A DNA stretch of 55,989 bases. Source: a virus. Numbering within the stretch: position 1 is the first letter of the stretch; the number at the start of each line of letters is the position of its first letter. Positions 1 to 55,989 of the stretch are shown here, piece after piece. A program made the translations under genes and the position numbers. The stretch lies in the IMG/VR virus record IMGVR_UViG_3300045253_000047, positions 1 through 55,989 of that record, one strand, 5' to 3'. The notes beneath the pieces are model-generated. The model had not been told where the DNA came from and ran no database searches. It was given only the letters and a program-made list of their open reading frames with translations.

Positions 1-182
1 CTGTTTTCCCAAAGGGTGGCTTGGCTGTTTCCCCAAAGGGTGGCTTGGCTGTTTCCCCAAAGGGTGGCTTGGCTGTTTCCCCGAAGGGTGGCTTGGCTGT
101 TTTCCCAAAGGGTGGCTTGGCTGTTTCCCCAAAGGGTGGCTTGGCTGTTTCCCCGAAGGGTGGCTTGGCTGTTTCCCCGAAG
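1..182. repeat. 24-bp tandem repeat, left end of contig
   Basis: Seven full copies and one partial copy of a 24-bp unit (ctgtttccccaaagggtgg + cttgg) with a few T/C and A/G variants. On the minus strand each unit encodes one octapeptide (NSQATLRG or NSQATLWG) of the junction gene. The same unit recurs at 55,963-55,989 in matching phase, so the contig was opened inside this array. The copy number is therefore uncertain. Confidence 0.95.
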
Positions 183-302
183 TTCAGCGGCTTCGCCGCC
201 TGATAGTTCGAAGTACTCACTGCCTACGCAGATCGGAAACTTACCCGCCGCGAATGCCGCTCTTAATTCGGCCTGGTTTTTTACTTCAATTCGTTCCTTC
301 AA
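1..302 (-). CDS. Octad-repeat phage protein, N-terminal part (continues at 55,989)
   Basis: This gene starts at a TTG (302-300) that overlaps the TGA of the upstream gene and has AGGAG at suitable spacing. It reads a unique N-terminus (KERIEVKNQAELRAAFAAG, then a GSEYFELSGG segment) into tandem octads NSQATLRG/WG. The frame runs off position 1 and matches the frame entering from 55,989, where the open frame ends in the domain at 55,476-55,871. Such regular octads probably fold as a beta-helix or solenoid. Upstream ATG starts are absent but the frame is open further, so the start is only likely. Function is unknown; the family is seen in other phages. Confidence 0.8.
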   Translation of the reverse strand, partial: MKERIEVKNQAELRAAFAAGKFPICVGSEYFELSGGEAAELRGNSQATLRGNSQATLWGNSQATLWENSQATLRGNSQATLWGNSQATLWGNSQATLWEN

Positions 303-42008: not shown

Positions 42009-43166
42009 TTATTGCACCATTCCCGCTTGCGTGGTCGGCATACGACCTAAAAAGTACGTCCAGTCTTCGCTCCATACCGTGCCGTCGTCTTTGACGTGAG
42101 AGCCTACGGGGATCGCTTTACCATTCGCCATAGTGCCTGGACTGGTCGTAAACCGCATACGCGCCTTCTCCGTGTCGATCTGGTTGAAATAGACATCGAC
42201 CCCGGCGAACGGCGTATCACCCTCCCACCGCCTCATTCGCATCCACGGGGCAAAACCTTTGAAGCTACGCAGTGCGTCCTTCGGCACCTTGCCTTCCGGG
42301 AACCTGCCGCGCACCTCCGTGATCGCCGCCGTAATCGCCTCGCAGTCGGCATCGGTCGGCTTCACGCTGTCCCACGCCCTTACCTCGTCGGGGGCGGAAT
42401 CCTTGCGGGGGAATATCTCGCGAATGGCTAAGTACGCCTCCGGCTTCCACTTTGGTAATGCCCCGGATTGCTTTGGAGCACGTGTAGCCTTCTTCGTCTC
42501 CGGTGCTGCTACGGGTACGGCGTCCGCGTTGTTCAATAGTGCCGTGACTTCATCCGGTATCGGCTCATTGCTCTCAACGTCAACCAGTGCAAAGTCCCCT
42601 AGGGGGGGCGTAGGGGGGGGATTCACAAGTAAGCCCAAGGAAGGAGAAGGAGAAGGAGAAGGAGAAGGAGAAGGAGAAGGAGAAGGAGAGACGGCCTTTT
42701 CCGCTATTTCGCGCTGACTTTCAATGTTATTCAATGAAACACTGTTTTTAGCGTCAATACCTGTCAATTGTGACATAGTTTCAACACTTCCGCTGATTGA
42801 CGGCGTTTCTTGCTGGTTGTTAATGAAATCCGTTGTTCGTCGCTTTTCGAGCTTGATATACGTTTGGTACTTGTAAAATGCCTTGATCGGGAAGTAAACA
42901 AGTGAATTCACGCGATCCCAGGAAATCAGTTTTACGCGGTCAATACACTCCAGTGCCGTGGATATATCCTTCGGCTCTAGGTCGCGCCGGTGGGGGAATA
43001 CGACGGCTAATAGCGTCTCTGGGTCGCCTGTAATAATGGCGTCGTCTCCGGCGTGTAGGATCATGCGCTGGTACAGATTTGACGCCATATCGCCGCATTC
43101 CCGTTCGAGTTTTGCGACTGCTGTATCTATCGAAATATCGGAGCTAAGGTAACGTCTTCGGCTCAT
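42009..43166 (-). CDS. Replication initiator/helicase-loader-like protein with (Ser-Pro)n linker
   Basis: 385 residues from the ATG at 43,166 (MSRRRYLSSDIS). The first ~120 residues form a winged-helix, DnaD/replisome-organiser-like domain (AKLERECGDMASNLYQRMIL; HRRDLEPKDISTALECIDRV). A linker holds a (Ser-Pro)8 run encoded by tandem GGAGAA hexamers, then PPPTPP. The C-terminal domain resembles replisome-organiser C-terminal regions (EAYLAIREIFPRKDSAPDEV). It likely melts the origin or loads the helicase. Linker length is likely variable. Confidence 0.8.
   Translation of the reverse strand: MSRRRYLSSDISIDTAVAKLERECGDMASNLYQRMILHAGDDAIITGDPETLLAVVFPHRRDLEPKDISTALECIDRVKLISWDRVNSLVYFPIKAFYKYQTYIKLEKRRTTDFINNQQETPSISGSVETMSQLTGIDAKNSVSLNNIESQREIAEKAVSPSPSPSPSPSPSPSPSLGLLVNPPPTPPLGDFALVDVESNEPIPDEVTALLNNADAVPVAAPETKKATRAPKQSGALPKWKPEAYLAIREIFPRKDSAPDEVRAWDSVKPTDADCEAITAAITEVRGRFPEGKVPKDALRSFKGFAPWMRMRRWEGDTPFAGVDVYFNQIDTEKARMRFTTSPGTMANGKAIPVGSHVKDDGTVWSEDWTYFLGRMPTTQAGMVQ
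42643..42690. repeat. Hexanucleotide tandem repeat (GGAGAA)8
   Basis: Seven perfect GGAGAA units and one GGAGAG. On the coding strand they give the Ser-Pro repeat of the initiator linker. Changes in copy number keep the frame and alter linker length only. Confidence 0.9.
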
Positions 43167-52518: not shown

Positions 52519-52847
52519 GATTTGTCTCCTTTCCCGTTGTCCATCAACAAGCAGATTATCACCCCGGCGCAAGCTACCACCAGTAACGCCGATAGCCGCC
52601 CCATGTGAAATTCCAGGTTGACCATTGATAGTACCGCCGCCGTTCCCGCGCATACCCAAGTTGCGAACCACTCGCTGGACGTGTTACCGAAGCCGAACTG
52701 CCGAGTGTCGCCCTCGTTGTACTGTTCGCCCGTCTCGTCGTGCAGGGCGCTCTCCTCGTGAGACAGGGGCGTTATGCCGGGAACGCGCTCCGGTGGTGGG
52801 ATGGCGCGGACGATGGCCGGGTCGAATGATTCGTTTGGGGTGGGCAT
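52515..52847 (-). CDS. Hypothetical membrane protein
   Basis: 110 residues: soluble acidic N-terminal half (MPTPNESFDPAIVRAIPPPE) and two membrane segments in the C-terminal half (WFATWVCAGTAAVLSMVNLE; LSALLVVACAGVIICLLMD). The start overlaps the RecT stop (TAATG). Role unknown. Confidence 0.65.
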   Translation of the reverse strand: MPTPNESFDPAIVRAIPPPERVPGITPLSHEESALHDETGEQYNEGDTRQFGFGNTSSEWFATWVCAGTAAVLSMVNLEFHMGRLSALLVVACAGVIICLLMDNGKGDKS

Positions 52848-54901
52848 TATTTGCCGCCTTTCGACTGCGACTTACGGTAGACTGCGAGACACGTGGGGCA
52901 ATACTGCGGGTCGCCATCGGCCAGATTGCGTATCTCGGCTTCCGTGAGCGGACGGCGCTCGCCGGGGCAACGGTGGTTCGCGCACCATGACGGCGGCAGG
53001 TTGTCCCCGGTCGTATCGTCGGCGAACGGGTCGTCGTGTACCGGCTCCTCTTCGGGCGTCAATGCGAATTCACCTTCGATATGCGGCGGCTCTTCGGCGG
53101 GAACCTCGCTGTCACGGATGCCTTCAGCGATCTTGATAAGTTGCTCCAATTGCGCTAAGGTTAGGTCAGCGGCTTTAATGTCGCCCACCAATTGCCCCCG
53201 AGACTGGAAATAGAGCGTGGTCTGCTGCTCGTTGAAATTCTCACGTAGGGCACCTAACCACTTTGCGGCCTTCTTACGGCTTTCTATGTCGGGGGCAACT
53301 TGTGGACGGACGGCGGCTTGCGGTTGAATAATCTCCCCGGTTGCAACGTCCACCGCGCCGACTCGGGCATCTGGAATGCTGCCGGTTTCCGTTTCGTCAA
53401 GCCACCCGAGGCCGCATATAGACAAGGTGACACGGCGCTTTGCCTTGGTATTGCCCGTAATCATAACACGTCCACCCTGCCGCATTACCCATGTGCCGTA
53501 CTGAGTTGTAGGGCACCATGCGGGGGCAGGTTTTATTGGGTCGATATTCAGAAACGCGCCTGCTATATGTCGGGTAGTCATAACTTTTTGCACATTGCAA
53601 TTACCTTTGATTGTCATAAGGTTTCCGAGAGCTTCCCCCTGCAATGTGCAAAGTATCTGGAATGCTTCGAGCACGTCCTTGTCTGTTTGGGCAAAATTCC
53701 TGCGACTGTCCGACTCCGCCATTTCCATAGCTTCAAGCATTGCTGCTCGCGCTGGCTCGTTCAAATGGCACGCGATACGAGCGAGATCAGCCCGACTTTT
53801 AAACCCTGCTTTATTCAAAAGATCGCGAGATGATTGAGCCGGGAGATAGTACCAATGCTGTGGCAATGTGTCGTACGTTCGGCCAGACATCGGGAAAGTG
53901 CGTGACGATGCCTTACTAACGCATTCGTACGAGGCGTTATCATATCGTTTAACTAATGCCGCAATTAACGGTAAGTAGAGTTCTTTAGATTGACATATTC
54001 CAATTCTCTTAAAGGTGCCTCGGGTTTGAATTGTACCGTCCGTGACGGCCCATCCTAGTATAGCGGCTTCGTCAGGCGTTAATAGTGAGGCGTCATTAGT
54101 AATAACCGGAGCCGAAAGTATAATCCTATGGCTAGTTTTTATTTCGGACGCTTTTACTAAACCACGGCTTTCTTGCCTGTTCTTATAAGGCCCTCGTACT
54201 GCACGATCGCCTGTACTGCGAGTTTTATATTCGGGCCGCTTCACAGCCCAAGAATGGTCAGGAGTGCAGATTACTCCAAACAAGCCCTTATCCGTATAAA
54301 GACGTACCATCGGTAATTCTTGATGAGTGGTAACGTTCAATAGCGGAGTCCATCGGCATGTGTCGGTCGCGCAATCATATGCTAGCACTTCTTCGCCGAT
54401 GATTGTGTTATCGTATGTAACAAACCCGCGCCGAGTTAGTATTTCACTATCCAGTGGAACACACTCGGCCTTCATAAAAGCGTTTGCCCGATTCTCGCCT
54501 TGGAGCTTGCCAACGTCCACCGCGCCGGTCGCAACGTCGGTTCTGCCGTCCGGCGTTTCCGCGTACGCCTTAATCAAAAGCGTCCCGTCGTACCAGACTT
54601 CTTCGAGCTTGGTAATACTGATCCGGTGTCGAGTGCGAAGCTGGTCGGTCGCGTCCTTCTTGGCGTAGAGCTTCATTTTACCGTTGAGAACGATGTACTC
54701 AAAAGGCTGCGTGAGTGGATTAAGCCCGATGGACTTGCATACCGCCCGGTAGTAATCCACGCGCTCCTCGGCGCTTACTTTCGATAAGTCACCCTGCACG
54801 AGTAGATGTTCAATCGCGGAAATATCCATCGCGGCTACTTCCCGTTCCGCCATTCCTAAGTCGGTCGCTTTTGCAACGGCCATTTGTGTTCCTGCGCCCA
54901 T
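52847..54901 (-). CDS. recT: RecT-type ssDNA annealing protein interrupted by an intein
   Basis: 684 residues. Extein parts are a RecT family protein: N-part residues 1-146 (EERVDYYRAVCKSIGLNPLT, LYAKKDATDQLRTRHRISIT), joined after splicing to TKAKRRVTLSICGLGWLDET at residue 485, which continues the usual 'KAxTKAKRRxTLxxCGLG' block. The C-terminus has a zinc finger (CANHRCPGERR ... CPTCLAVY). It anneals single strands for phage recombination. Without splicing the intein would break the central fold, so excision is required for activity. Confidence 0.92.
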   Translation of the reverse strand: MGAGTQMAVAKATDLGMAEREVAAMDISAIEHLLVQGDLSKVSAEERVDYYRAVCKSIGLNPLTQPFEYIVLNGKMKLYAKKDATDQLRTRHRISITKLEEVWYDGTLLIKAYAETPDGRTDVATGAVDVGKLQGENRANAFMKAECVPLDSEILTRRGFVTYDNTIIGEEVLAYDCATDTCRWTPLLNVTTHQELPMVRLYTDKGLFGVICTPDHSWAVKRPEYKTRSTGDRAVRGPYKNRQESRGLVKASEIKTSHRIILSAPVITNDASLLTPDEAAILGWAVTDGTIQTRGTFKRIGICQSKELYLPLIAALVKRYDNASYECVSKASSRTFPMSGRTYDTLPQHWYYLPAQSSRDLLNKAGFKSRADLARIACHLNEPARAAMLEAMEMAESDSRRNFAQTDKDVLEAFQILCTLQGEALGNLMTIKGNCNVQKVMTTRHIAGAFLNIDPIKPAPAWCPTTQYGTWVMRQGGRVMITGNTKAKRRVTLSICGLGWLDETETGSIPDARVGAVDVATGEIIQPQAAVRPQVAPDIESRKKAAKWLGALRENFNEQQTTLYFQSRGQLVGDIKAADLTLAQLEQLIKIAEGIRDSEVPAEEPPHIEGEFALTPEEEPVHDDPFADDTTGDNLPPSWCANHRCPGERRPLTEAEIRNLADGDPQYCPTCLAVYRKSQSKGGK
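53450..54463 (-). mobile_element. Intein with LAGLIDADG-like homing domain in recT
   Basis: 338 residues, Cys147 to Asn484, followed by Thr485 (the +1 nucleophile). Splicing blocks: A CVPLDSEILTRRGF; B GVICTPDHSWAV (TxxH); C-terminal VMITGN|T. The penultimate residue is Gly, where most inteins have His. Between them, ILGWAVTDGT (first motif, Asp288) and AMEMAESDSRRNFAQTDKDV (second, reduced motif) resemble a LAGLIDADG nuclease. It probably splices; nuclease activity is uncertain. Confidence 0.88.
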
Positions 54902-54903
54902 GA

Positions 54904-55476
54904 TTATTTCCCTACTTTCTGTATACCGGTGTTAATTTCGAACTTCGTCCACGGCGGCGCGACTTCGAATAAATCGGCGGGTAGCTCGATCTTACTTTTC
55001 TTGAGAGTGTTAAGCGCGAGTTTCTCAACGGTCTTTTCACTCACTGCCTCCGGGATGGCCTTCTTTGCCCATACGAACGCGCCAGCCTCATTGAGTATGG
55101 TAATCGCCCCGCCGTCGTAATCCGTGAGCGACAACGCACCGAACGCCGTAAGGTACGTTTTGTCCTTCTGCTTGCCGATCTCAGCCGTCGCAAACTCCTG
55201 CAACTCAGCGCGGAACCGTTTATCAAGGAACGTGAGCGCGTTCTGTTCCCGTTTGGCTTCACGGTCAAGGTTCTCGTTAAGCGCCTTCCGCCGAAGCTCC
55301 ACGCTCGCTAGAATGGCCTCATGCCGCTGCATCCGCTCCAGCACCCATTCCGCCGATGGCCTGTCGGTCACGTGGAATTCCGGCTTCGGCTGGTGCACCA
55401 ACTCAAGGCACTCGCCCGTGTCCGCGTCAATCCAGTAGTCACCCGAAATGACCTTGTTAATTGTTGTCTCTTCCAT
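54904..55476 (-). CDS. Gam-like host-nuclease inhibitor
   Basis: 190 residues: helical N-part (RMQRHEAILASVELRRKALN) and beta C-part (TYLTAFGALSLTDYDGGAIT, ILNEAGAFVWAKKAIPEAVS). The 'FGALSLxDYDGG... LxEAxAxxWAKxxxPE' order fits the Gam-like family that binds DNA ends and blocks host nucleases. It is next to recT, as lambda Gam is next to Exo/Bet. Moderate certainty. Confidence 0.65.
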   Translation of the reverse strand: MEETTINKVISGDYWIDADTGECLELVHQPKPEFHVTDRPSAEWVLERMQRHEAILASVELRRKALNENLDREAKREQNALTFLDKRFRAELQEFATAEIGKQKDKTYLTAFGALSLTDYDGGAITILNEAGAFVWAKKAIPEAVSEKTVEKLALNTLKKSKIELPADLFEVAPPWTKFEINTGIQKVGK

Positions 55477-55989
55477 TACGCCTTGACCTCCAGCCGTACG
55501 CCATTCTTATCGACTTCGTAAGTCGGCTTGCAACAGCCCCGCGCTTTTACCTTATCAGGGTAATTGCCGTCAGGGTGAACCGCAATATCAGTCAAGCGGA
55601 CAGGGCAAGCGAGAAACTTCGTGGCATCGTTATTGAACGCCATCGCCATCATAGGATGTGGCGAGAAGTGCAAACCGCCACCACATTCTTCTTTGCCGCC
55701 GTCCCAATCGGTTGCTACCGGTATCAATCCGGGTGAGTAGTCACACCCTCGCGGGCTGATATACTTATCGTTCACCGCTTTGTACAGCAGAGCGACACCA
55801 CGGACTACTTCAACTCCGTAGAATTCACACCATGCTTTTGCCGTCTCACGCTTCGGCGGTCGTATCTGCACGCCTCCTTCGACTGTTACCTGATCGGAAA
55901 GAACAGTAACAGCACAGTATTTCGCCGCTTTGATCTTCGATTTTTGGGATGCAATTGCTTGGCTGTTTCCCCAAAGGGTGGCTTGGCTG
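55476..55989 (-). CDS. Octad-repeat phage protein, C-terminal part (continues from 1-302)
   Basis: Continues in frame from the junction: NSQAIASQKSKIKAAKYCAV, then a conserved domain (YKAVNDKYISPRGCDYSPGL, CGGGLHFSPHPMMAMAFNND, ATKFLACPVRLTDIAV) and ends VRLEVKA. A shorter internal ATG at 55,871 would give only the last domain. Octad beta-helix plus this Cys/His-containing domain is a layout seen in other phages; the function is unknown. The two halves must be joined to represent one protein of roughly 250 residues. Confidence 0.8.
   Translation of the reverse strand, partial: SQATLWGNSQAIASQKSKIKAAKYCAVTVLSDQVTVEGGVQIRPPKRETAKAWCEFYGVEVVRGVALLYKAVNDKYISPRGCDYSPGLIPVATDWDGGKEECGGGLHFSPHPMMAMAFNNDATKFLACPVRLTDIAVHPDGNYPDKVKARGCCKPTYEVDKNGVRLEVKA
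55963..55989. repeat. 24-bp tandem repeat, right end of contig
   Basis: One full unit and the first three bases (CTG) of the next. Phase matches the array starting at position 1, supporting circular closure through this repeat. Confidence 0.95.

Follow-up and report, generated by a model that had tools for sequence, protein, structure and literature searches.

A phage octapeptide-repeat gene cut at the ends of its contig, and the rule-like variation of repeat arrays among its relatives

What does it mean when a viral contig begins and ends in the same short repeat? The IMG/VR record IMGVR_UViG_3300045253_000047, all 55,989 bp of which make up the stretch analysed here (the window), starts and stops within copies of one 24-bp unit and is classed as 'linear', without an end repeat. 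An original prediction had read these ends as a single octapeptide-repeat gene that crosses the contig ends of a circular or circularly permuted genome. Are the two ends indeed one gene, and what might be the role of a protein with such an array? The features on which the answer depends are collected in Table 1.

Table 1. Features of the array gene and its immediate neighbours in the window
Feature	Position	Strand	Remarks
5' part of the split gene	1..302	-	TTG start at 302, N-cap (LKERIEVKNQAELRAAFAAGKFPICVGSEYFELSGG...), then octads
24-bp tandem array, 7.6 copies	1..182	-	coding (QATL[W/R][G/E]NS)n
Array remnant, 33 bp (1.3 units)	55957..55989	-	other contig end; 100% identical to 19-51
3' part of the split gene: last octads, linker, DUF7666-type domain	55476..55988	-	profile and phrog_15773 matches
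GTG-initiated sub-ORF within the 3' part	55476-55871	-	
Upstream ORF, 125 aa	299..676	-	no family match; stop overlaps TTG start
Downstream ORF	54904..55476	-	weak match to Mu Gam-like end-protection proteins, phrog_2205, E 1.2e-6

The array at the left end is reported by TRF with 96% matches and a score of 329, and the final 33 bases of the window match a part of it exactly on the same strand, so that the same unit does stand at both ends. Read on the minus strand, the joined window runs in a single frame from the TTG, which is preceded at 6-8 nt by a Shine-Dalgarno-like AAGGAG, through octads of the form GNSQATL[W/R] to the stop at 55476. The further claim that both ends are in the same phase does not hold for ends that are simply abutted: the motif spacing across the join is then 27 bp (55977 to 56004) and the protein reads NSSQATL. 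Collapsing the 3-bp terminal overlap CTG gives a spacing of exactly 24 bp. Both values are multiples of 3 and the frame is kept either way; N-cap and repeats precede the domain in one ORF, with contiguity at the join resting on this collapsing or abutting of the ends. The intact frame that had been put forward is therefore open and is also the correct one on both sides, since both remaining minus frames run into stops in the flanks. As proof of one gene it is nevertheless weak, because the 24-bp unit is free of stops in all six frames.

A stronger argument comes from comparison with complete homologues. A family profile (A4) of 23 intact relatives matches window 3-293(-) with its model positions 3-100 (E 3.1e-23) and window 55482-55988(-) with positions 125-293 (E 1.3e-78), that is, both ends match co-linearly, in the correct order and on the correct strand. 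The joined protein aligns over 97% with gp76 of the Gordonia phage Spooky and over 96% with gp59 of the Mycobacterium phage Che8, two intact homologues from isolated phages with the same order of parts. On this sequence comparison, it is the intact relatives and not the open frame that provide the decisive proof of a single gene. As far as sequence can show, the window ends are the N- and C-terminal halves of one gene that the assembler cut within the array, and the octads do link the N-terminus to the C-terminal domain as originally predicted. The co-linear profile match, the intact relatives and other contigs of the family that are split alike also support the proposed circular or circularly permuted genome, closing through the array. 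Its total of about nine units is what the assembly displays and not a measured copy number, in line with the earlier warning on this point. Closure itself is an ordinary result. Synteny adds no proof to it, as the window's neighbour genes were not found beside the array gene in other loci except for one methylase; a megablast search of the structural region against known phages returned no match.

Could the ends instead derive from different phages, or from different loci of one phage that carry similar repeats? Such arrays are present in many phages, repeats are classic chimera points, and the 'linear' label of the record would fit. Against this, the two ends complement each other as halves of a single family model, their terminal units agree in all of 33 bp, and the same split recurs in seven relatives. 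Moreover, the window unit is nearly private: the search for NSQATL octads elsewhere that had been suggested yielded, in a scan of IMG/VR, only one confirmed relative, a different protein with 74% identity. We thus regard a misassembly as extremely improbable.

How often do assemblies break at this place? Among 80 viral contigs carrying the family domain, 27 end inside the ORF of the array gene, on the array side, and one ends within 600 bp downstream of it; random placement of ends would give about 1.8. Among the 70 contigs of 20 kb or more, 19 end inside the ORF, compared with 1.0 expected. Of the array-broken contigs, 11 measure 38 kb or more, and in seven of these (L019, L022, L024, L032, L038, L051 and L061) the array is present again at the other end; a profile search additionally detects the N-terminal half in six of the seven. 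None of the shorter contigs closes in this way. The terminal sequences overlap exactly by 107 bp in L022 (3300005445_000005), by 127 bp in L038 (3300036852_000350) and by 76 bp in L061 (3300012987_000001). Scanning with an array sequence added two further contigs that carry an array at each end (191 kb, L134/L153; 52.6 kb, L136/L157), and eight genomic contigs came from a contig scan with the closer alignment A3, six of them likewise starting within 400 bp of the match. These recurrent array-end contigs, several with the array at both ends, indicate that the window is one instance of a general effect, in which the assembly of a circular or circularly permuted genome halts within its array. The breaks can be ascribed to array length and surface residues that change very fast in many phages. 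This explains why many phage contigs terminate in one gene, and genomes labelled 'linear' can be closed at it. IMG/VR lists L022, L038 and L061 as linear despite their exact terminal overlaps.

What kind of protein is encoded here? The C-terminal half places it in phrog_15773, matching positions 119-279 of the 288-position profile at E 1.1e-31. In this family an N-cap is followed by strand-turn repeats of eight residues (24 bp) or ten (30 bp) and then by a DUF7666-type domain. With Pfam DUF7666 (PF24703) the window reaches 22.3 bits, below the cut-off of 27 that is passed by its relatives Che8 gp59 (46.8 bits) and bbp36 of the phage BPP-1 (41.7 bits); 54 of the 56 aligned members match at E <= 0.1. 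Judged by these profiles, the protein is a member of a known but unnamed family. Our literature search found no mention of DUF7666 and no measured function for any DUF7666-octad protein.

AlphaFold2 models the C-terminal half of the window with a pLDDT of 96 and the intact relative L025, whose octads read NSTATLWG, with 90.5; each octad of the latter forms one strand of four residues and a turn of four. This confident model supports the beta-solenoid that had been proposed from the repeat. Along the strand, conserved A and L alternate with the variable position, and the variable residues should therefore face outward, side-chain exposure being derived from this alternation and DSSP rather than from coordinates. 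We picture the protein as an N-cap, a beta-solenoid with one strand-turn octad per 24-bp unit, and the C-terminal domain. Alternating conserved residues, V/A or A/L, would form the solenoid core, and the positions that lie between and follow them, at which the units differ, would be exposed. With the full L025 model Foldseek returned weak beta-helix matches only (pectate lyases, SufB/D), and none in the PDB was confident for the solenoid. For the C-terminal domain, ADP-ribosyltransferase-type folds (PARP10, PARP14, PARP1, CNFy, C3, KptA) make up most of the top 50 PDB matches, at E >= 0.2 and a TM of about 0.3. In alignment A5, K70 and H107 are invariant and E158 nearly so, and these three could sit at places equivalent to the catalytic triad of these enzymes; the canonical H or R of an H-Y-E or R-S-E triad is not seen in A5, and a PDB sequence search with the domain profile gave no match. 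The models hint weakly at a remote ADP-ribosyltransferase-like fold.

The part most worth following is the variation of the arrays, which across many phages is rule-like, non-synonymous and two-state. We registered 70 arrays, 49 with a period of eight residues (24 bp) and 21 with a period of ten (30 bp). Position 1 of the unit (V/A/I/M) and position 3 (A/L/T/S) vary in none of them. Position 2 varies in 58 of the 70, mostly V/E or T/R, position 4 in 65 (W/R, S/Y and others) and position 5 in 59 (G/E or G/D), with the last position of the unit varying in 23. At the probably exposed positions 2, 4 and 5, variable in about 83-93% of arrays, the choice is usually limited to two residues, and the same residue pairs recur among phages although the repeat DNA differs.

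Along the same lines, the distinct codon variants within the 70 arrays comprise 255 non-synonymous and 31 synonymous ones, where 75 synonymous would be expected under random single-base changes. The binomial P of this deficit, 9e-11, is naive, since variants from one array, or from related ones, depend on each other; in 50 of the 70 arrays there are no synonymous variants at all. The window array, with W5/R3 and G6/E1, has no synonymous change either. An extreme case is L056, where only four codons differ among 67 decads, with two states each in eight combinations and without any synonymous difference. Most arrays come from metagenome assemblies, which may collapse repeats. Records that would be isolate genomes by their IMG/VR names share the pattern, for example with pair differences of 963 non-synonymous versus 28 synonymous (L077), 264 versus 0 (L089) and 137 versus 14 (L040), and so do named mycobacteriophages, which argues that it is not a metagenome artefact only. 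A salt-bridge ladder between units is not supported by charge-product correlations at lags 0-4, almost all of which have |z| < 3, the exception being x2-x5 within the octad unit (z 4.9); the order of charges along the arrays is close to random. VIPR guide RNAs, phage tandem repeats with variable positions and a 5-nt period (PMC13142463), were rejected as a match, as they are non-coding with the period YNNGG, whereas codon structure and 24- or 30-bp periods dominate here.

Can the turnover of these arrays be observed directly? L029 and L031 are identical in their C-terminal DNA and in 300 bp downstream, but their arrays have 16 versus 9 units. Similarly, L078, L080 and L081 share identical C-terminal DNA and carry about 7, 3 and 4 units with different residues, and L069 and L070 have almost no array. 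The in-frame variation in copy number that had been anticipated is thus seen between relatives with identical flanks. In L073 (Nitzel) and L090 (Soul22) the array gene is apparently frame-shifted or broken within the repeats; the annotation of Nitzel has two genes at this site. The simplest mechanism of turnover is recombination from unit to unit, which between near-identical units would both change the length and shuffle a small set of residue choices. As synonymous changes are missing, selection would appear to keep the variants in exposed residues, and probably also those in length.

Variation that is confined to fixed codons, with third bases mostly invariant, could also be written by a targeted mutator such as a diversity-generating retroelement, and BPP-1 carries a retroelement. 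The window, however, gave no match in a search for reverse transcriptase (RVT_1), and the changes at the fixed sites are A/T, C/G, C/T, A/C and A/G rather than adenine-only. A mutator is for these reasons a highly unlikely source of the variation, and we retain recombination between units together with selection.

Where would such a protein act? In relatives, the array gene lies next to RecE-like and other exonucleases, Erf-like annealing proteins, HNH nucleases, Cas4 and methylases, and these recombination-type neighbours make an early intracellular protein more likely than a tail fibre. PADLOC and NCBIfam gave no usable match. The array is also modular. L154 and L155 (2354-3271, +) combine the same N-cap and W/R repeats with another C-terminal domain without a Pfam match, and in L127 (2033-2800, +) window-like NSQATL octads form the C-terminal end of an unrelated protein that includes MCDFLSALVFSDGK. 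Elsewhere in the window, a 684-aa ORF at 52847-54901 (-) resembles a phage protein for DNA binding or recombination into which an intein has been inserted, the insert starting at '...NAFMKAE/CVPLDSEIL' and ending at 'VMITGN/TKAKRR'; the ORF had no match among the profile models searched. A perfect 6-bp repeat, GAAGGA in 8.3 copies, lies in a long ORF at 42640-42689.

From this anatomy and by analogy with the repeat protein gp54 of phage Tweety, we infer that the most likely use of the array would be as a fast-evolving binding surface, tuned by its length and the composition of its face, which would work inside the host cell beside the phage recombination genes. Its probable target would be a host or prophage defence; more generally, it is probably a quickly re-tunable surface used against bacterial hosts or rival phages. 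For the explanation as a whole, from the split early gene and its beta-solenoid to an array that is recombined, selected and probably directed against defence, we see a modest balance of evidence in favour.

A simpler reading takes the array as a spacer, ruler or rigid stalk, in which length alone matters and residue differences are neutral. Tweety gp54 escape mutants differ in repeat number, the present arrays vary strongly in length, and charge pairs between units are close to random in order, as such a reading would have it. Yet neutral drift predicts about 75 synonymous variants among the 286, not the 31 seen, and cannot easily accommodate arrays without any, nor the same exposed positions and residue pairs varying in unrelated DNA; we consider the ruler possible but rather unlikely. 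A virion role, with a gp5-like triple-stranded beta-helix of octads serving adsorption or puncture, is very unlikely. It draws on the octad period, a weak match of L025 to Pfam Gp5_trimer_C (E 1.6e-5, below the cut-off) and a match to the baseplate hub phrog_430 (E 1.2e-6). The genes, however, lie among exonuclease, annealing-protein, HNH and methylase genes and not among tail genes, 21 of the 70 arrays have a ten-residue period, and variable region 2 (VR2) of BPP-1, in bbp36, does not appear to reflect host tropism, with bbp36 itself being dispensable (PMC2884959). A more far-reaching version of the binding surface would be a protein recognition code. Three or four exposed positions per octad or decad, usually with two residues each, would spell specificities that are written by unit recombination and aim an ADP-ribosyltransferase-like or other effector at changing intracellular targets, for example defence proteins. 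Arrays of the same kind do carry different effector domains (L154/L155, L127); we hold this code to be quite improbable.

How does the binding surface compare with systems already described? TAL effectors offer a well-known case of near-identical DNA repeats in which a few differing codons set the specificity. The likeness lies in repeats that differ at few codons; their fold and length are different, and the present array has no known code or ligand. With the C-terminal triple-stranded beta-helix of T4 gp5 the arrays share the octad period and a weak profile similarity, but gp5 is a trimeric virion needle, the array genes stand outside tail modules, and the matches remain below the cut-off (for Gp5_trimer_C at best 25.5 bits against 30.9, in a relative), placing the protein outside the gp5-like group.

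Closest in architecture are Che8 gp59 and Spooky gp76, members of phrog_15773 with N-cap, octads and DUF7666 domain; they are about 32-34% identical to the joined protein, and the gp59 repeat reads GSAHV[V/E]A[W/R] compared with GNSQATL[W/R] in the window. BPP-1 bbp36 likewise combines DUF7666 (E 1.7e-10, above cut-off; hhalign probability 95) with a 24-bp octapeptide array, of 13.8 copies, and lies upstream of an exonuclease. In contrast to the window, its domain order is reversed, with DUF7666 first, its repeat is GTATAG[Y/E][R/S], and it falls into phrog_18079. In BMP-1, a sister phage of BPP-1, the same repeat has 9-20 copies depending on the isolate (PMC2884959), a published precedent for in-frame changes in copy number. 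VR2, whose role was reported as unknown, can now be grouped by its domain with phage proteins that are widespread.

Tweety gp54 acts in counter-defence, and the number of its repeats tunes this activity (PMC2884959, PMC9262239, PMC8549241); its escape mutants have a changed repeat number (PMC9262239, PMC8549241). Like the present arrays, its array is in frame and variable in copy number, with third codon bases invariant and first and second ones variable (PMC2884959, PMC9262239, PMC8549241). It belongs, however, to a different family, with tetrapeptides AA[GWQ][SY], no DUF7666 and unrelated flanking domains; its homologue in Che8, gp57, is in phrog_3416 without a Pfam match, and the array protein is not a member of that family. 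Che8 (L010, 1276-2139 and 2495-3301, +) carries both kinds, gp57 with AA-x-x tetrapeptides and gp59 with octads, as two distinct in-frame variable-repeat genes two genes apart. By analogy, the role of the array protein may be similar to that of bbp36 with its VR2 and of Tweety gp54. If the arrays do tune counter-defence in the manner of Tweety gp54, they would give phages a general means, independent of retroelements, of redirecting a protein, and this reading can be tested in laboratory phages of M. smegmatis.
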